DNA from: Paraburkholderia flava
GTDB lineage: Bacteria > Pseudomonadota > Gammaproteobacteria > Burkholderiales > Burkholderiaceae
Assembly: GCF_004359985.1 (NCBI RefSeq)
Contig: NZ_SMRO01000001.1
Coordinates: 1,655,100 to 1,719,099 of the forward strand
DNA length: 64,000 nt
Direction of reading: 5' to 3'
How positions within the stretch are numbered: the first letter of the stretch is position 1; each line of letters starts with the position of its first letter. Positions 56,959 through 64,000 of the stretch are shown here, in pieces. The notes beneath the pieces are model-generated. The model was not told the origin of the DNA, made no database searches, and saw only the letters and a program-made list of their open reading frames with translations. The position numbers and the translations under genes were made by a program.

Positions 56959-58491
56959 TCAGTCAGCGAGCTTCGCAGCCTGTTGCGCGACACGCGAAGC
57001 ATCCGCATGCGTGGCGCTCGCGAGACGCTTGCCGTAGTCCTCGTCGGCCTTGTAGAAGTACGACAGCATCGTGTACTTGTTGCCGTCGTTCGTGACGTGG
57101 TTCAGATCCGCAGCGAGCGCGGTGACGAGATCGCCCTTGTCCTGCGCAGACAGCGACCGGTAGTACTCGCCGGCCTGGCGGAAGTTGAGCGTCTTGTGGA
57201 TCGCCTGCTGCTGTGTCGTGCCCGTCAGCGGCGTCTGCACAGGTTTGTACTGCGGGTCCTGTGCGAGCTCCGCGATACTCGACGGCTCGTAGTTCACGTC
57301 GCCCTTGCGATCGCCGAAATTCATCAGGCCGTCCTGATTGTTGTTCGTGACGGGCACGCGCGGCCGGTTGATCGGCAGGTCGAGGTAATTCGGTCCGAGC
57401 CGGTACATCTGCGTATCGGCATACGAGAACAGGCGACCCTGCAGCATCCGGTCTTCCGACGGCTCGATGCCCGGCACCATTCGCGAAGGTGCGAACGCGG
57501 ATTCCTCGGTGCTCTGGAAGTAGTTGTCCGGCACGCGGTTCAGCGTCATCGTGCCGATCTTGCGCTCGGGCACCGACGACCAGACCTTCGTGTCGTCGAG
57601 CGCGTCGTAGTCGAACTTGCCGAGATCATCCGGATTCAATACCTGGATATACAGATCCCATTTCGGATAGTCGCCATTTTTCAATGCGCCATACAGATCG
57701 TTCGACATCAGATTCCAGTCTTTTCCGATCGATGCCGGAATGTCCTGCGGCCGGATGCCATGAATGCCTTGCTCGCTTTTCCAATGGAATTTCACGTAAT
57801 GCACTTCGCCTTTTGCATTCACGAGCTTGAACGCATGCACGCCGAAGCCATCCATATGCCGGTACGAATTCGGCATTCCACCGTCGGTGTACAGGCGGGT
57901 CAGCATGTTCGTCGCTTCGGGCGCGTGCGCGAAGAAGTCGAACGCGAGATTGGCATCCTGCACACCGGTCACCGCGCTCGGTTTGTTCGCGTGAACGAAG
58001 TCGGGGAACTTGATTGCGTCGCGAATGAAGAAGATCGGCAAGTTGATGCCGACCAGATCCCAGTTACCTTGCTGCGTGTAGAACTTCGTCGCGAAGCCAC
58101 GCGGATCGCGAGCCTGCTCGGGTGATCCTCGATAGCCCATCACCGTAGAAAACCGCACGAATACAGGCGTATGCGCACCCGGCGTGAAAACCTGCGCCTT
58201 CGATAGATCCGAAATGTCGGCGTCCGCGACGAACTCGCCGAACGCACCGGTGCCACGTGCATGCACGACACGCTCGGGGATGCGTTCGCGATCGAAGCGT
58301 TGAAGTTTCTCGGTGAGATCTGAATCCTGCAGCAGCGTTGGGCCGCTCGGACCAGCTGTCTGCGAGTTCTGGTTGTCGCCGATCGGAGCGCCGGCGTCGC
58401 GCGTGAGATCGGCAGCGAATGATGTCGACGCAAGCGCGACAGCGAGCGCTGCGGGAAGAAACTTGAGGGCATGTCTGGCGTATTTCGCCAT
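56959..58491 (-). CDS. Exported monofunctional heme catalase
   Basis: A 510-residue clade catalase with a Sec signal peptide (M-A-K-Y-A-R-H-A-L-K, ending S-T-S-F-A-A). The distal histidine is in V-V-H-A-R-G-T-G-A-F-G. The asparagine is in G-I-N-L-P-I-F-F-I-R-D, and the proximal heme Tyr in R-L-F-S-Y-A-D-T-Q. It breaks down hydrogen peroxide in the periplasm. GGAG lies 8 bases before the ATG at 58491. The ankyrin lipoprotein follows in the same operon. The upstream region is AT-rich and may bind OxyR, though no full site was recognised. Confidence 0.92.
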   Translation of the reverse strand: MAKYARHALKFLPAALAVALASTSFAADLTRDAGAPIGDNQNSQTAGPSGPTLLQDSDLTEKLQRFDRERIPERVVHARGTGAFGEFVADADISDLSKAQVFTPGAHTPVFVRFSTVMGYRGSPEQARDPRGFATKFYTQQGNWDLVGINLPIFFIRDAIKFPDFVHANKPSAVTGVQDANLAFDFFAHAPEATNMLTRLYTDGGMPNSYRHMDGFGVHAFKLVNAKGEVHYVKFHWKSEQGIHGIRPQDIPASIGKDWNLMSNDLYGALKNGDYPKWDLYIQVLNPDDLGKFDYDALDDTKVWSSVPERKIGTMTLNRVPDNYFQSTEESAFAPSRMVPGIEPSEDRMLQGRLFSYADTQMYRLGPNYLDLPINRPRVPVTNNNQDGLMNFGDRKGDVNYEPSSIAELAQDPQYKPVQTPLTGTTQQQAIHKTLNFRQAGEYYRSLSAQDKGDLVTALAADLNHVTNDGNKYTMLSYFYKADEDYGKRLASATHADASRVAQQAAKLAD

Positions 58492-58877
58492 GATCGTCTC
58501 CAGCTGATTGTGGGGGGCGGGTCGCTTGTGGCGCGCTTGTGGCTCAATACGCAGCGAATGGTATTGAATGCGGTATTGAGCGACCAATCGAATTTTGAAA
58601 TTAAACAGATAGCTCGTTTTAATTGTCAGCCGTAAACGCGATGAGCAATAACGCTATGCATCTACATGGCATTTCCGAAAGGAATTTGCGAAAAGATGTG
58701 CATGAATTATTGCGTGTATTGATGTGTCGACGAGCAGGGCGCCACGCGATGACTTATCGCTATCGAGCGGATCGGAATTATCAAACGCAGCTGACATGTT
58801 GAACGGCTACCCTACCGGCCAGTACGCGAACGCGGCAACCGTGCCGCAGCGACCTATTCCATTCGACGGAGCCGTGC
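58492..58877. other. Intergenic region between catalase and sigma-factor genes
   Basis: These 386 bases contain an AT-rich part (about 58560-58720) and no credible gene. They must hold the catalase promoter on the minus strand and the promoter of the sigma factor gene on the plus strand. No perfect operator or hairpin was found. Confidence 0.5.
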
Positions 58878-59429
58878 ATGACTGCACGATTCGATACCAG
58901 GACATCGCGCGCCCGAACACGCGCAGTTACATCGGACGGAGACACCTTGTCTGCGCAGCTCATCACGATGCTGCCGCAGCTGTGGGCATTCGCGTTGCGA
59001 CTCTGCGGAGACGGGTGCGCAGCCGAGCATCTCGTGCAATGCGCGTGTGCACGGACGCTCGAGCAGCCGTACCATTCGCGCTCCGACGACGTCTCGCCAT
59101 GGGTCGCGCTGTTGTGCGAGCTGTACGCGACCTGGCACAGCGAGCGGCATGAGCCCCCGATGTATGGCGACCGTCGTCACGATACGTCCACACAGCGACA
59201 TGACCCATCGATCGTCGACGCTGTCGATTGCCTGCCCGACGTGCAGCGCGTTGCGCTACTGCTGATCGAAGTCGAAGGCCTGAGCTACGACGAAACGGCC
59301 AGCGTGCTGAACGTTCCCGTCGCAATGGCGATGAGTCACCTATCGCGTGCGAGACGAACGCTGGGTGCCCAGTTTGTCGGCCGGGCATTGCGCGGCAATG
59401 CAGCTTCCGGCGAATCGGCCGTGCGGTAA
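58878..59429 (+). CDS. Sigma-70 family (ECF-like) sigma factor
   Basis: A 183-residue protein. A clear region 4 lies near residues 115-165 (L-P-D-V-Q-R-V-A-L-L-L-I-E-V-E-G-L-S-Y-D-E-T-A-type segment, then S-H-L-S-R-A-R). Region 2 is degenerate (L-W-A-F-A-L-R-L-C-G-D-G-C-A-A-E-H), with cysteines in place of usual residues. GGAG lies 6 bases before the ATG. No anti-sigma gene follows; a CHRD-domain gene comes next on the same strand. Confidence 0.78.
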   Translation: MTARFDTRTSRARTRAVTSDGDTLSAQLITMLPQLWAFALRLCGDGCAAEHLVQCACARTLEQPYHSRSDDVSPWVALLCELYATWHSERHEPPMYGDRRHDTSTQRHDPSIVDAVDCLPDVQRVALLLIEVEGLSYDETASVLNVPVAMAMSHLSRARRTLGAQFVGRALRGNAASGESAVR

Positions 59430-59613
59430 GCCGTTACGCGGGATGACGCATGAGCATTGCCGCACTGCACGAACGGGAGCCGCACCCGGAACCGGAAATC
59501 ACACAACGAAAAACCGATGGAATAATTCCCCAAGGGTGTACGTTCTGAAAGCAAGCAGCCACCACGCTGCCGATTTGCGACCTGCTCCCAGCCACTCAAA
59601 AACGGAAAACATC

Positions 59614-60051
59614 GTGAAACTGAACCTGACTCTCTCCGCACTCGCCCTGACCATCGGCCTGGCTTCGCCGCTCATCGCGATGGCCGACATGCTGAACGTG
59701 CACGCGGATCTGACCGCCGCCGCCGAAGTGCCGCCGAAGACCAGCGACGGTCACGGCCAGCTGACCGGCATGTACGACACGTCGTCGAAGGATTTGCAGT
59801 GGACGGTCGAGTACTCGGGCCTGACCGGCCCGGCGACGATGGCGCACTTCCACGGCCCGGCACCGGTCGGCAAGAATGCGAGCGTGGTGATTCCGATCGC
59901 CGCCGCCGATCTGCCGAGCCCGATCAAGGGTCACGCGACGCTGACCGACGCGCAGGAAAAGGATCTGCTGGCCGGCAACTGGTACTTCAACGTGCACACG
60001 GCGAAGAACCCCGGCGGCGAGATTCGCGGCCAGGTTGCTGCAACGAAGTAA
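59614..60051 (+). CDS. CHRD-domain periplasmic protein
   Basis: A 145-residue exported protein with a Sec signal (ending I-A-M-A-D) and one CHRD domain. The family markers A-H-F-H-G-P-A and W-Y-F-N-V-H-T-A-K-N-P-G-G-E-I-R-G-Q-type end are present. CHRD domains occur in animal chordin and in many bacterial secreted proteins of unknown role, sometimes linked to copper or superoxide dismutase-like folds. The start is a GTG after a weak GGAAAAC site. Confidence 0.85.
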   Translation: MKLNLTLSALALTIGLASPLIAMADMLNVHADLTAAAEVPPKTSDGHGQLTGMYDTSSKDLQWTVEYSGLTGPATMAHFHGPAPVGKNASVVIPIAAADLPSPIKGHATLTDAQEKDLLAGNWYFNVHTAKNPGGEIRGQVAATK

Positions 60052-60121
60052 GCGCAGGCTTTCGCGTGATACGACCGGTTATGTGCCGGTCGCATCGCGC
60101 GTTGATTTCAACCCACAGTCA

Positions 60122-60763
60122 TCACCAGCGCAGCAATCGCGGTCCCGCCAGAGCACCCACCGCTGTTGGCAGCGCGATGCCCAGCACATACCAGACTGCC
60201 CAGAACGGCACGGTCATCTCCGGACAGTGCAGGCAGTACGCGATGGTCGCAACCGATCCCGACAGCAGTCCTGCCGCCGCGCCCGCGAGCCGCAGCCGCG
60301 TCGGCGCGAGGCCGCGCATCGCGATGAACGTCGCGATGCAGCCCGGCACCGACAGCAGCGCGATGTTGAACGGGCACGAATGCCACGTATGACCGAATAT
60401 CAACGTGGCGCGCGAGTCGGGCGACGCCAGCCATAACACGACGAGTGCGGCGAGCCAGACCACCACGACCGGCGTCGCCACGCCTCCCCATGCACGTCCG
60501 ACGGCAACGCCCGGCCGCGACAACCGCGCGGTCAGCACGAGCGCCGCAATCGCGAGACACAGCGGCAATGCGAGCTTGACCCAGAACAGCGGCGTCACGA
60601 GCATCGTGCCGATATCGGGGCGAACGCCGTAGCCGAACACCGCGATCAGCGTGGCGCCGAGTGCGCCGACGAGCAGTGCCGGCGCGAGACGCCGGGTCAC
60701 GGCATGGCGCTTGACGGGGACAACATCCGTCGCGAGCAGCGAAATAAGCGCGTCGGTTTTCAT
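60122..60763 (-). CDS. nrsF: NrsF-type membrane anti-sigma factor (DUF1109)
   Basis: A 213-residue inner-membrane protein with six hydrophobic helices and the DUF1109 pattern: a short cytoplasmic N-terminus ([11 protein letters not shown]), then helices with cysteine pairs in H-S-C-P-F-N and C-L-H-C-P-E-M. In Caulobacter, NrsF holds sigma-F inactive and senses metals through conserved cysteines. It overlaps the sigF stop as ATGA, so the two are translated together. Confidence 0.9.
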
Positions 60764-61335
60764 ACGGTGGCTCCTTTAATCTTCAACGCCAGGGCTTTCA
60801 GCCCCCGATGCACGCCGACCTTGATCGCCGATTCGGTGAGGCCGGTGAGCTGCGCGGTTTCGGCGACCGACAATCCTTGCAGCTTCACGTGCACGATCGG
60901 CAGCCGCTGCCGGTCGGGTAGATGGTCGAGCAGTTTTTCGAGGTCGCGTTTTGCGTCGGCGGGCTCGGTGTCGGAGGCGGCGAACAGCTCGGACTCGTCG
61001 TCGAGCGGATCGTGCAGCGCTTCGCGGCGCGACCGCGCGCGCAGAAAATCGGTCAGCTTGTAGCGCGCGATCGCGTGGACCCATGCGGTCAGCGGTTCTT
61101 CCGGACGATACGTGTGCCGGCCATTGTGCACGGCAAGCAGGATCTCCTGAACGATATCCTCGATCTCGTCGTGCAGGTGAAAGAGCCGCTTGCGCAGGAA
61201 CGCGCGCAGATGGCCGGTCAGGTCGGCGAGGAACGCATGATAGGCCGCCTGGTCGCCGTCCAGCGACCGGACGAGCAGCGCCCTGAGGCGTTCTTCGACA
61301 GGCCGCGCAAGGCCGGGATCGGTACTGTGGGTCAT
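60760..61335 (-). CDS. sigF: ECF sigma factor SigF
   Basis: A 191-residue ECF sigma factor. Region 2 lies near residues 40-100 ([24 protein letters not shown]) and region 4 near 135-185 ([24 protein letters not shown]). Together with NrsF it forms the sigma-F system that in Caulobacter answers to copper and other metals. Three exact copies of its known promoter pattern lie within 2 kb, upstream of the thioredoxin, DUF4148 and bufferin units. Confidence 0.92.
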
Positions 61336-61481
61336 CGCGGAGACGGCGTTCGGACGCCGTGAGGTTGCGGAAGTGACCGTTAGTCGGCGAACCGGGCCGG
61401 TTCTTACAGCCCGAGCGAACGATTTTTTCGATGCACGAAGCCCGAGCCGCGATTCGAGTGAGAAGATCGCGCGTCCGCCAA

Positions 61482-62210
61482 TCAGATCGACGTCGTGAAC
61501 GTAGTCAGCCACGCAGGACTCACTGCCAGCGCCGCTGCCTCGATCTGCCGGTCGAAACCCGTCAGCACGACACCGCCCAGCACGACGAACAGCGCGCCGA
61601 GCACCCAGCGCGAGCGCTGACCGAACGTCGCGAGCGTGCCGCGCAACCGCAGCATCGACGCACGCGACACGACGCCCACCAGCAGCAGCGGCAGCCCCGC
61701 GCCGAACCCGAACACGATCATCAGCAACGCGATCTGGCCGAGGTGCTGGCCCTGCGCGGCGAGCGTTGTCGCGGCGCCGAGCGTCGGTCCGACACACGGA
61801 CTCCACACGAACCCCAGCAGCAGACCGATCAGCAACTGACCGGCGAGGCCGTCGCCGCTCACGCGATCGAGCGCTTGTTGACCGGTCGCGCCGACCTGTG
61901 CGCTCACCCGCGCGAACCGTTCCTGCAACCGGCCGGACAACATCACGAGACCGAACGCGACCATCAACGCGGCAGCGAGACGCCGCAGCATGTCCGCATC
62001 GAGGCCGATCGACGCACCGAGCGTCGCGAGAAACAGCCCGACCGCCGCGAACGACAACCCGAGGCCAAGCGCGAGCGCGGCGGCGCCGAGCCGATGCTTC
62101 GACAGCGCAGACGCCGCGAGGATCGGCAGCAGCGGCAGCACGCACGGCGACAGCACCGACACCACGCCAGCGCCGAACCCGAGCGCGTAAGTCGCGAGAC
62201 CGAAATCCAT
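61482..62210 (-). CDS. ccdA: CcdA/DsbD-like transmembrane thiol transporter
   Basis: A 242-residue inner-membrane protein with six helices. The two redox segments S-P-C-V-L-P-L-L-P (helix 1) and S-P-C-V-G-P-T-L-G (helix 4) carry the cysteine pair that moves electrons from cytoplasmic thioredoxin to the periplasm. Its start (TGATG) touches the stop of the exported thioredoxin gene, its likely electron acceptor. The pair is preceded by a sigma-F promoter. Confidence 0.92.
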
Positions 62211-62605
62211 CACAGCGCCTTGTCGAACGTCGCGCGAATCGCCTGCTCCTGCGTTTGCCCGGTCGAGCGCGCGACTTCATGTCCCTGTTTGAACACGACG
62301 AAGGTCGACTGCTGCGTGATTTTCAGCGCGCGCTTGAGCGCGGTTTCGGTGTCGTAGTCGGCGACGAAGATCGTCACCGGTTTCAGCGACGGTTCGGCGG
62401 CGAGCCTGTCGACGATGGGTTTCTGCACGCGGCAGGTCGGGCACCACGTCGCGTGCAGATAGACGACGGCGGGTTCGCCGGCCGCGATCGTGTGCTCGAA
62501 GCGGGCTTGCGTGAACAGCACTTCGTCGGCGAACGCGGGGCCGGAAAGCACGGCGCACGACAACAGCGCGCCGGTGAGGATCTTGCCGGAAGAGAACGGT
62601 TTCAT
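62210..62605 (-). CDS. Exported thioredoxin-like protein
   Basis: A 131-residue protein with a Sec signal (ending G-P-A-F-A-D) and a thioredoxin fold. The active site is W-C-P-T-C-R in [11 protein letters not shown]. It would take electrons from the CcdA protein and reduce periplasmic disulfides. A perfect sigma-F promoter lies about 55 bases upstream, so it should be induced with the bufferin genes. Confidence 0.9.
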
Positions 62606-62663
62606 CGGATGACTCCTGCGAGCGAGACGGCGTTGCCGCCATCGGTGGATGGGTTCATAGGAG

Positions 62664-62689
62664 TTCGTCGCGAAGGCGCTGCCGGTTAC
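62664..62689 (-). promoter_or_regulatory. Sigma-F promoter for thioredoxin-ccdA
   Basis: On the minus strand GTAACC (62689-62684) is followed by 16 bases and CGAA (62667-62664), an exact match to the Caulobacter sigma-F promoter GTAACC-N16-CGAA. Confidence 0.85.
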
Positions 62690-62722
62690 ACCGCAAGCGA
62701 AATTTATTTACGGCTTTTCGCT

Positions 62723-62748
62723 GTAACCGGCACGGCCACCGCGGCGAA
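62723..62748 (+). promoter_or_regulatory. Sigma-F promoter for the DUF4148 gene
   Basis: GTAACC (62723-62728), 16 bases, CGAA (62745-62748): exact sigma-F pattern, about 76 bases before the DUF4148 start. It is divergent from the thioredoxin promoter, with 33 bases between them. Confidence 0.85.
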
Positions 62749-62823
62749 TTCACCGTCAGACACGCCATGCATCGCAGCGTGCCACTTTCCTTCTACCTCT
62801 GCACGTTCTGACTGGAGCCGATC

Positions 62824-63144
62824 ATGAAACCGACTTTTACCACCCTCTTCATCGCCGCTGCTGCAACCGCCATCACTGCTGTCGCTAGTCCCGCTTTCGC
62901 CGACGCACGCTACGACGTCGGCATGTCGTCCGCGACTGTCGCTGCTTCCACGGTTTCCCGCGCCGAGGTTCGCGCCGAACTGGCCCGTGCCCGCGCGGCC
63001 GGCGAACTCGCGTTCTCGCATAACGAATACCCGGTGCTGCAACCGTCGATGCACGACATGTCGAACGTGTCGCGTGCGGACGTGAAGGCCGAACTGGCCC
63101 GCGCCCGCGCTGCGAATGAGATCCCGCATTTCGTGAACGGCTGA
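62824..63144 (+). CDS. DUF4148 exported protein
   Basis: A 106-residue exported protein with a Sec signal (ending S-P-A-F-A-D) and two copies of a short repeat, S-R-A-E-V-R-A-E-L-A-R-A-R-A-A and S-R-A-D-V-K-A-E-L-A-R-A-R-A-A. DUF4148 is common and multi-copy in Burkholderiaceae and has no known activity. The sigma-F promoter upstream places it in the metal or thiol stress regulon here. Confidence 0.87.
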   Translation: MKPTFTTLFIAAAATAITAVASPAFADARYDVGMSSATVAASTVSRAEVRAELARARAAGELAFSHNEYPVLQPSMHDMSNVSRADVKAELARARAANEIPHFVNG

Positions 63145-63184
63145 TCCTGCGTTCCGGATCGCTCGCAAAAATTTTCGCGTCGCT

Positions 63185-63210
63185 GTAACCGCACGATCGA
63201 CAGCGACGAA
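63185..63210 (+). promoter_or_regulatory. Sigma-F promoter for the bufferin operon
   Basis: GTAACC (63185-63190), 16 bases, CGAA (63207-63210): exact sigma-F pattern 81 bases before the bufferin precursor start. Confidence 0.87.
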
Positions 63211-63290
63211 CTAACCAGCAGATCGCTCACGACAACGCAACGACGACGATCTGCCCACCTTCTTACCCGTCAACACACCAGGAGCTTCAC

Positions 63291-63566
63291 ATGAACACGA
63301 TCAAACTGTCCGCTGCTGCACTCGTTCTCGCCTCGCTCGCATCGGGCGCATTCGCTCAGACCCAGGCCGCCGGCGGCGCTGTCGAAAAGTGCTACGGCGT
63401 GTCGCTCGCCGGTCACAACGACTGCAAGGCAGGCGCGGGCACGACCTGCGCGGGCACTGCAAAGATGGACTATCAAGGCAACTCGTGGAAGAACGTTCCG
63501 GCCGGCACCTGCACCTCGATCAAGACGCCGAAGGGCATGGGCTCGCTGTCGGCGATGGAATCGTAA
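63291..63566 (+). CDS. bufA1: Bufferin-1 precursor (DUF2282, copper-binding RiPP)
   Basis: A 91-residue exported peptide with a Sec signal (ending G-A-F-A-Q) and a core with four cysteines: K-C-Y-G-V, N-D-C-K-A, T-T-C-A-G-T and G-T-C-T. This is the DUF2282/BufA1 pattern. In Caulobacter, such precursors are modified at cysteines to thiooxazoles by the MNIO enzyme BufB, exported, and bind copper. AGGAG lies 6 bases before the ATG. The maturase gene follows after 22 bases. Confidence 0.9.
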
Positions 63567-63588
63567 GCACTGCATCGCGCCCACGATC

Positions 63589-64000
63589 ATGGATACCTTC
63601 ACGAACCTCGGCGCAGGCGTCGGCCTGAAGCCGCATCATTACGACGAAGCGCATCGCGCAACGCAACGCGGGTTGTGGTTCGAGGTTCATCCGGAGAACT
63701 ACATGGTCGCGGGCGGTCCACGGCTCGCGTGGCTCGAGACGATTCGCGCGCGGCATCCGCTGTCGCTGCATGGCGTGTCGCTGTCGCTTGCCGCAGATCG
63801 TGCGCCCGACGCCGATCATCTGCACCGTCTCGCTGCACTGATTAAGCATGTCGAACCCGCGCTCGTTTCCGAACATCTCGCGTGGTCTGCATGGCGCGAT
63901 CAATACCATCCGGACCTGCTGCCGTTTCCGCGCACGAACGCCGCGCTTGCACGCATCGCGGACAACATCGCGCAGACGCAGGACGCACTCGGCCGCCGCA
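63589..64000 (+). CDS. bufB: MNIO-family bufferin maturase BufB (DUF692), partial
   Basis: The first 137 residues of a DUF692/MNIO enzyme, cut by the window edge. [20 protein letters not shown] and S-L-H-G-V-S-L-S-L, followed by S-E-H-L-A-W-S, give the iron-binding His, Glu and Asn pattern of the family. It would oxidise cysteines of the bufferin precursor just upstream using an Fe2+/Fe3+ centre. The remaining operon (a DUF2063 partner is usual) lies beyond the window. Confidence 0.9.

Follow-up and report, generated by a model that had tools for sequence, protein, structure and literature searches.

Does an exported thioredoxin with its membrane electron carrier CcdA belong to a regulon of the extracytoplasmic function (ECF) sigma factor SigF and its anti-sigma factor NrsF, and, if so, what would it reduce there? 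This question is raised by a stretch of 64,000 nucleotides of the Paraburkholderia flava genome (NCBI RefSeq assembly GCF_004359985.1, contig NZ_SMRO01000001.1, positions 1,655,100 to 1,719,099 of the forward strand), hereafter called the window. Towards its end the genes trx, ccdA, sigF and nrsF, a gene for a DUF4148 protein and the beginning of a bufferin operon lie side by side. An earlier note on this DNA had described three copies of the motif GTAACC-N16-CGAA before these genes and had regarded them as a complete sigma-F regulon. Comparison with related genomes makes it likely that an envelope-stress regulon of the sigma-F/NrsF (ECF16) type has its core at this locus, with three near-identical sites that very probably let one stress regulator switch on the bufferin pathway together with an envelope-reducing pair.

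Sigma-F-type sites at the locus

A motif search found all three exact sites at the coordinates and on the strands given before (Table 1). Between CGAA and the called start codon, a distance previously put at 55-80 bases, we measured 58 bases for trx, 75 for the DUF4148 gene and 80 for the bufferin precursor. With up to one mismatch GTAACC-N16-CGAA occurs four times in the window, which is not unusual since 25 of 100 shuffled sequences reach this number, and the whole genome holds 17 exact matches (two for the reversed pattern). Both counts mean that the bare string is insufficient, and we therefore built a matrix from 110 sites of relatives that lie at most 300 bases from a called start and outside called genes, our own sites being excluded. 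Across the 64 kb this relatives-only matrix ranked the three sites first, followed by a next best score of 2.1 bits, which rules out a chance origin; with looser spacing the runner-up in the window had 7.5 bits. Moreover, the published group motif YGTAAC-N17-CGAA occurs three times exactly in the window against 0.13 expected, and none of 100 shuffles reached three.

We also surveyed 60 stretches of 10.5-20 kb around the NrsF genes of relatives, picked from the stronger NrsF matches, which together with our own locus make 61 loci. Exact sites were present in 60 of them (132 in total, four in our own locus), and the genes behind them comprise sigF, DUF2282, cytochrome b561, Met-rich, DoxX and other genes. 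Conservation extends beyond the ten searched letters, as 107 of the 110 relatives' sites have a T just 5' of GTAACC and in 106 of them the second letter behind CGAA is a T. NrsF was found in 57 of 77 genomes of the same genus, in 56 of them above the curated cut-off. TGTAACC-N16-CGAA occurred on average 5.88 times per genome with strong NrsF (n=49) versus 1.70 times without NrsF (n=20; Mann-Whitney p 4e-10), whereas the reversed pattern gave means of 1.31 and 1.35, respectively. Eight genomes with a weak or fragmentary NrsF match were kept apart and had a mean of 2.25. The sigma-F link that the earlier note had drawn to the bufferin operon, trx-ccdA and the DUF4148 gene is supported, and the latter two links recur in relatives with conserved sites.

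Table 1. Predicted promoters and genes of the locus with their positions in the window
Feature	Position	Strand	Evidence
Sigma-F-type promoter (predicted) of trx-ccdA, probably also of sigF-nrsF by read-through	62664..62689	-	exact GTAACC-N16-CGAA; 27.4 bits
Sigma-F-type promoter (predicted) of the DUF4148 gene	62723..62748	+	exact GTAACC-N16-CGAA; 34.8 bits
Sigma-F-type promoter (predicted) of the bufferin operon	63185..63210	+	exact GTAACC-N16-CGAA; 28.7 bits
trx, exported thioredoxin-fold protein, 131 amino acids, WCPTC active site	62210..62605	-	PF00085 50.4 bits, cut-off 23.5
ccdA, membrane thiol-electron carrier, CcdA/DsbD type	61482..62213	-	PF02683 53.4 bits, cut-off 27.1
sigF, ECF sigma factor, 191 amino acids	60760..61335	-	Sigma70_r2 and Sigma70_r4_2 above cut-off
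nrsF, membrane anti-sigma factor, Cys130 and Cys180	60122..60763	-	PF06532 251.2 bits; alignments
DUF4148 protein, small, exported, 106 amino acids	62824..63144	+	PF13663 63.8 bits
bufA, bufferin precursor (DUF2282, Buf1), four conserved Cys	63291..63566	+	PF10048 85.4 bits; alignment
bufB, MNIO bufferin maturase, continues past the window end	63589..64000	+	PF05114

A small gene of one kind follows a conserved site in six loci of relatives (L076, L087, L160, L161, L183, L184), and the one that was tested, in L087, encodes a DUF4148 protein by Pfam. This protein and the DUF4148 protein of the window did not fall into a common BLAST cluster, so the link stands at the level of the domain family. 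As a predicted sigma-F target at this level, DUF4148 recurs. Sites of the same type also precede DUF1223 genes in L087 and L161 and HD-GYP-like genes, named by eye, in L076 and L087.

Linkage of trx-ccdA to sigma-F and bufferin genes

The distribution of the thioredoxin is patchy: at an E-value of 1e-10 a relative was found in 16 of 200 genomes of the family and in 14 of 77 genomes of the genus. We examined 30 trx-ccdA loci of the genus in their context, which represent the stronger Trx matches, with the weaker relatives L136, L146 and L148 outside the set. A site lies directly upstream of trx in seven of the 30, namely our own locus, L087, L152, L160, L161, L183 and L184. Another twelve are part of, or close to, a diverged sigF-nrsF-bufferin cluster that has a site of its own, GTAACCTTTTG...CGAA (L153, L155, L157, L158, L159, L186, L188, L191, L194, L195, L198, L199). 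In this diverged lineage NrsF is about 25% identical, sigF-nrsF is divergent from the bufferin operon and trx-ccdA is found nearby. Among eight loci of other genera of the family L151 is linked. Its order is site-sigF-nrsF-trx-ccdA, its neighbours are a further nrsF and a bufferin operon, both preceded by a site, and it comes close to a rearranged copy of the window locus.

Searching the genomes of named species with the Trx alignment gave 134 relatives, and our counts cover the best 80 of these. NrsF lies within 10 kb of trx in 25 of the 80, bufferin genes in 26 and either in 32. A site above 12 bits was present within 330 bases upstream of trx in nine of them, and at the mirror position beyond the 3' end in none. 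The nine belong to Paraburkholderia (2), Caballeronia (3), Burkholderia sp. S171, two beta-proteobacterial bins and Sphingobium, the last with the weakest site (12.7 bits). A control of 12 trx loci chosen for lacking these neighbours (222 kb) gave no match above 12 bits.

Several observations weigh against a fixed place of the pair in the regulon. Eleven of the 30 loci of the genus show neither arrangement, L193 among them with DUF2063 and MNIO matches nearby. Seven of the eight loci of other genera are unlinked (L162, L164-L167, L169, L170; L167 with weak, distant matches only), and neither NrsF nor bufferin genes lie within 10 kb of trx in 48 of the best 80 of the 134 relatives. Besides, linked loci supplied nine of the ten rows in the Trx alignment, and loci of the genus recur among the 80, so that these fractions are neither independent nor unbiased. 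The unlinked loci mark trx-ccdA as optional. Nevertheless, the predicted link of trx-ccdA to sigma-F/bufferin systems holds up in the wide comparison. It is the least documented part of the system, and we found no description of trx-ccdA in NrsF-type bufferin regulons in the open-licence literature.

Control of sigF

That no site lies directly before sigF, as the earlier note had stated, agrees with our scores, since the matrix gave at most 2 there and at most 0 with variable spacing. No hidden sigma-F site appeared before sigF with spacers of 14-18 included. The candidate TGTAAGAACC...CGACTAAC at 61408-61379 scored -0.1 and -0.6 (spacers 14 and 15, before gap penalty) and is not claimed. At about 43 bp before sigF, TGTAAGAACCGG...CGACTAAC (61379-61408, minus strand) resembles a broken or gapped sigma-F site.

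The further statement that the control of sigF must differ was not supported. On the minus strand trx and ccdA (overlapping by four bases) are followed, after a gap of 146 bases, by sigF and nrsF, which again overlap by four bases. The gap contains no terminator-like site, in a test that is weak because three such sites were found in 4 kb against 2.9 expected. Given the same-strand order, this missing terminator-like site and the missing direct site, read-through from the trx site appears to be the simplest account of sigF control, and the trx site probably drives sigF-nrsF in this way. L071 (behind nrsF) and L108 (behind a DoxX gene) resemble the window in that sigF comes late in a same-strand run with a site at its start; L121 has a similar run behind a DoxX gene, beginning with an inexact site of 20.0 bits. 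Among 60 sampled sigF genes ten, our own included, have a site farther away than 330 bases, three of them at 358-374 bases. Nine have no site within 3 kb, which speaks against autoregulation as a general feature.

Alternatively, sigF-nrsF may have a housekeeping or other promoter of its own in the gap behind ccdA and escape autoregulation, as the earlier note had supposed; we give this somewhat less than an even chance. The missing sigma-F site before sigF, also with variable spacing, would fit such a promoter, and so would reports from other species: rpoQ-rsqA of Cupriavidus metallidurans is described as RpoD-dependent (PMC10304878), and Caulobacter sigF as not strongly autoregulated (PMC3511200). 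However, 41 of the 60 sampled sigF genes have a site above 14 bits within 330 bases, and no sigma-70-like site was found in 60000-64000, a weak test with 0.5 expected. It is also conceivable that another sigma factor than SigF uses the sites, as the window holds a second sigma-70-like gene at 58878-59429. We consider this very unlikely, since in 69 genomes the number of sites goes with the presence of NrsF, and since mapping by 5' rapid amplification of cDNA ends (5'RACE) and fusions gave the same motif for Caulobacter SigF (PMC3511200). We keep to SigF as the predicted user of the sites and to read-through as the probable route to sigF.

Predicted regulon members outside the window

The regulon is larger than the earlier note had assumed when it called the set complete, as the genome has at least three further sites beyond the window whose targets are conserved, namely a second nrsF, a DoxX gene and a gene for a lactonase-type propeller. 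Six of the 17 genome matches have matrix scores over 20, three have scores of 13.8-17.2, and the eight below 7 were discarded.

The fourth site of the cluster (L018:6659-6684, minus strand) lies 76 bases before the second nrsF, a gene on the other strand, beyond the bufferin operon, whose product has kept both cysteines. The 61 loci contain 76 NrsF-type genes above 100 bits, of which 59 follow sigF and 14 directly follow a gene of the bufferin operon; the remaining three, our second nrsF among them, follow neither. With 14 of 76 NrsF genes behind the bufferin operon, it is common for the output operon to have an additional NrsF attached, and this arrangement suggests feedback.

The two remote sites in our genome have 21.7 bits (DoxX gene) and 31.1 bits (propeller gene). 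Of 17 DoxX loci, our own included, 15 have a site above 12 bits whose GTAACC stands 111-158 bases ahead of the protein match; six of these sites read CGAT, not CGAA. In one of the other two loci the site lies 437 bases before the match; the locus that lacks a site belongs to a genome in which no NrsF was found. A second genome in which no NrsF was found, only 86% complete, carries the DoxX site. Relatives of the propeller with at least 62% identity have the site in four of four cases (our own included), those with 37-39% identity in none of two.

We do not claim L017 (14.1 bits, inside a gene) and L007 (13.8 bits, overlapping the end of a called gene) as targets. L011 (G000:C2:1547203-1547228) scores 17.2 bits and lies 44 bp before a gene for a proline-rich, exported-looking protein without Pfam match; it is possible that it marks a further target. 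L014 (G000:C2:1969885-1969910), one of the discarded matches, is a conserved element: near-identical TGTAACCGAGGAAAGAAGGCACGCGAA occurs in many Paraburkholderia genomes, some without NrsF, and in our genome it lies 174 bp before a quinone-oxidoreductase-like gene, named by eye.

In the relatives, a cytochrome b561 gene lies behind a site near sigF in 16 loci (L062-L066, L068, L070, L080-L082, L086, L096, L097, L100, L102, L107), and a gene for a small Met-rich protein in six others (L072, L074, L084, L091, L099, L104). One Met-rich member is MXKDX by NCBIfam.

Proposed mechanism and role of the thioredoxin-CcdA pair

In the working model that we propose, NrsF would keep SigF at the inner membrane at rest. 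Periplasmic copper or an oxidant would release SigF, probably via the NrsF cysteines, and SigF with RNA polymerase would initiate at TGTAACC-N16-CGAAyTA. Transcription would then run into trx-ccdA and very probably on into sigF-nrsF, as positive autoregulation, and would also start before the DUF4148 gene, the bufABC-doxX operon and the second nrsF, the last as negative feedback, as well as before the distant DoxX and propeller genes. The bufferin would bind Cu(I) by chelation in the periplasm. CcdA would carry cytoplasmic electrons to the exported Trx, which would reduce copper-induced disulfides and may hold the bufferin cysteines as thiols.

We infer copper as inducer from relatives. Caulobacter SigF is reported to be induced by copper stress and required for it (PMC8224329), and its release was described under chromium stress and in NrsF cysteine mutants (PMC3511200). 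Other reports are less easily reconciled with the model: in C. metallidurans gig expression went up after deletion of rpoQ, whose own operon was the RpoD-dependent one mentioned above (PMC10304878), and the RpoE7 promoters of S. meliloti are given as unresponsive to hydrogen peroxide, cadmium and chromate (PMC6180224).

What the pair serves can be read in several ways. One reading, to which we give less than an even chance, takes trx-ccdA as an optional but dedicated part of sigma-F bufferin systems, a periplasmic relay coinduced with bufferin that would reduce cysteines of bufferin (or NrsF) for copper binding and for reset of the response, with the second NrsF as a brake. Somewhat more doubtful is the idea that the sites are real sigma-F sites and that Trx-CcdA is a general periplasmic reductant, for instance in methionine-sulfoxide repair or cytochrome c maturation, and is not specifically connected with bufferin. 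Such a role would match Haemophilus influenzae, where RpoE2 is reported to control an msrAB operon with exported thioredoxin and CcdA (PMC9404787) and also a DoxX/MNIO-type cluster (PMC7907618), and ECF16 regulons elsewhere that include methionine sulfoxide reductases (PMC8315932). However, no msr gene was found among the genes of the locus run against Pfam and NCBIfam, a result from the locus with no whole-genome search for MsrAB/MsrPQ made. Furthermore, trx-ccdA has bufferin genes in its neighbourhood in both of the diverged sigF/nrsF lineages, and also in loci of Caballeronia, Dyella and Rhodanobacter.

Trx-CcdA may also reduce the periplasmic cysteines of NrsF, resetting the sensor as a periplasmic counterpart of the sigma-R/RsrA/thioredoxin loop. 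This is an unlikely reading, although both of our NrsF proteins carry both cysteines and trx-ccdA lies before or behind sigF-nrsF on the same strand in our own locus, L151 (same record as L219) and L250. Replacing the two conserved NrsF cysteines is also reported to derepress the Caulobacter regulon (PMC3511200). The diverged NrsF lineage has kept Cys130 and has no equivalent of Cys180 in four of four aligned sequences (at about 25% identity this placement is less sure), yet trx-ccdA is linked to it all the same. This weakens the NrsF cysteines as a general substrate of Trx. Bufferin, in contrast, has kept all four cysteines in both lineages (seven sequences aligned), and because of this difference bufferin is favoured over NrsF as the predicted substrate.

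The periplasm is oxidising and copper drives disulfide formation there, whereas bufferins depend on cysteines that are free or heterocyclised. The recurrent thioredoxin-CcdA pair, predicted to be co-regulated, is a candidate for the upkeep of this thiol state. Besides, the predicted promoters define a SigF regulon in a genome of the Burkholderiaceae, with an anti-sigma gene in a feedback position, and further members can be found with the matrix.

Relation to known systems

Sigma-F control of bufferins is already known. GTAACC-N16-CGAA has been published as the sequence bound by sigma-F in Caulobacter, whose regulon table contains DUF2282, DUF692, DUF2063, DoxX, YedY, SigF and NrsF genes (PMC3511200), and sigma factor and NrsF genes have been reported in Buf1 clusters in a paper whose main text is without the terms thioredoxin, ccdA and DsbD (PMC12452194). 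Our locus shares with SigF-NrsF of Caulobacter crescentus (CC3252-CC3257, CC2905-2907, CC2748) the promoter, the SigF/NrsF pair with its conserved cysteines and the bufferin-type operon targets, and the copper phenotype there fits the proposed role. In contrast, genes for a thioredoxin, CcdA or a DUF4148 protein are missing from the Caulobacter regulon table, which has one NrsF, and Caulobacter sigF has a sigma-F-type promoter of its own.

In Cupriavidus metallidurans the copper-induced bufferin operon gigPABT likewise lies beside an ECF sigma/anti-sigma pair, rpoQ-rsqA, but the layout is divergent, rpoQ is the RpoD-dependent gene discussed above, and control of gig by RpoQ was not shown to be direct; the terms CcdA and DsbD are absent from the text of PMC10304878. 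RpoE2-HrsE of Haemophilus influenzae (and SigE of Neisseria) is similar to our locus in that one ECF factor connects a relay of exported thioredoxin and CcdA to a COG3220 (MNIO-type)-DUF2063-DoxX cluster. It differs in its anti-sigma factor, which is described as small, cytoplasmic and 67 amino acids long, in the relay serving MsrAB and in hypochlorite as the signal. BcrS-AbcS of Brucella (ECF16) shares the NrsF-type anti-sigma factor, the group consensus [TC]GTAAC-N17-CGAA and a Met-rich MXKDX target, as in some relatives here; its main targets are reported to be MsrPQ and a Met-rich peptide, and thioredoxin is absent from the text of PMC8315932. Because of the ECF regulon of H. influenzae and a link between a disulfide reductase and copper in Salmonella, the joint regulation of a thioredoxin-CcdA relay under envelope or copper stress has precedents; what we did not find described in the open-licence literature is such a relay within NrsF-type bufferin regulons. 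The Salmonella system, Scs, is a periplasmic thiol-reducing system that works with the copper-binding protein CueP under another regulator, not NrsF/bufferin. The title of a reference ties this disulfide reductase to copper resistance.

Gene families at the locus

The assignment of the genes rests on family models and alignments. SigF adjoins the gene of an NrsF (DUF1109) anti-sigma factor, the targets are headed by [TC]GTAAC-N17-CGAA, and Cys130 and Cys180 of NrsF align with those of relatives; they correspond to C131 and C181 of Caulobacter by position only, according to the text of PMC3511200. Against the NCBIfam equivalog AntiSigF_NrsF our NrsF scored 151.5 bits over the full length, below the curated cut-off of 300, and by this model it is a member of the same family, not a strict equivalog. 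A DsbD_TM domain in CcdA and a thioredoxin fold with CxxC in Trx identify a CcdA/DsbD carrier and its partner thioredoxin. WCPTC is unchanged in ten of ten aligned Trx sequences, and the start of trx looks like a signal peptide by eye.

In the bufferin operon the gene of the DUF2282 precursor, with its four cysteines and a signal peptide read by eye, is followed by the MNIO maturase gene and then, already beyond the window, by the DUF2063 and DoxX genes. The bufABC order was confirmed in L018, where the full bufB gene scored 368.5 bits with MNIO_BufB (cut-off 310); the DUF2063 partner has PF09836 at 64.5 bits. The DoxX gene of the cluster scored 41.7 bits with the NCBIfam HvfX-family model (curated cut-off 80), and our bufferin 23 bits with BufA2, the model of the other bufferin family (curated cut-off 60), both below the cut-off. 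The relatives' genes carry their DoxX label on the strength of tblastn to this DoxX gene of the cluster.

Elsewhere in the window, at 58878-60051 on the plus strand, the short sigma-70-like gene, with region 2 just under the Pfam cut-off, is followed by a gene for a CHRD-domain protein. A catalase-like gene at 56959-58587, named by eye, adjoins this pair.

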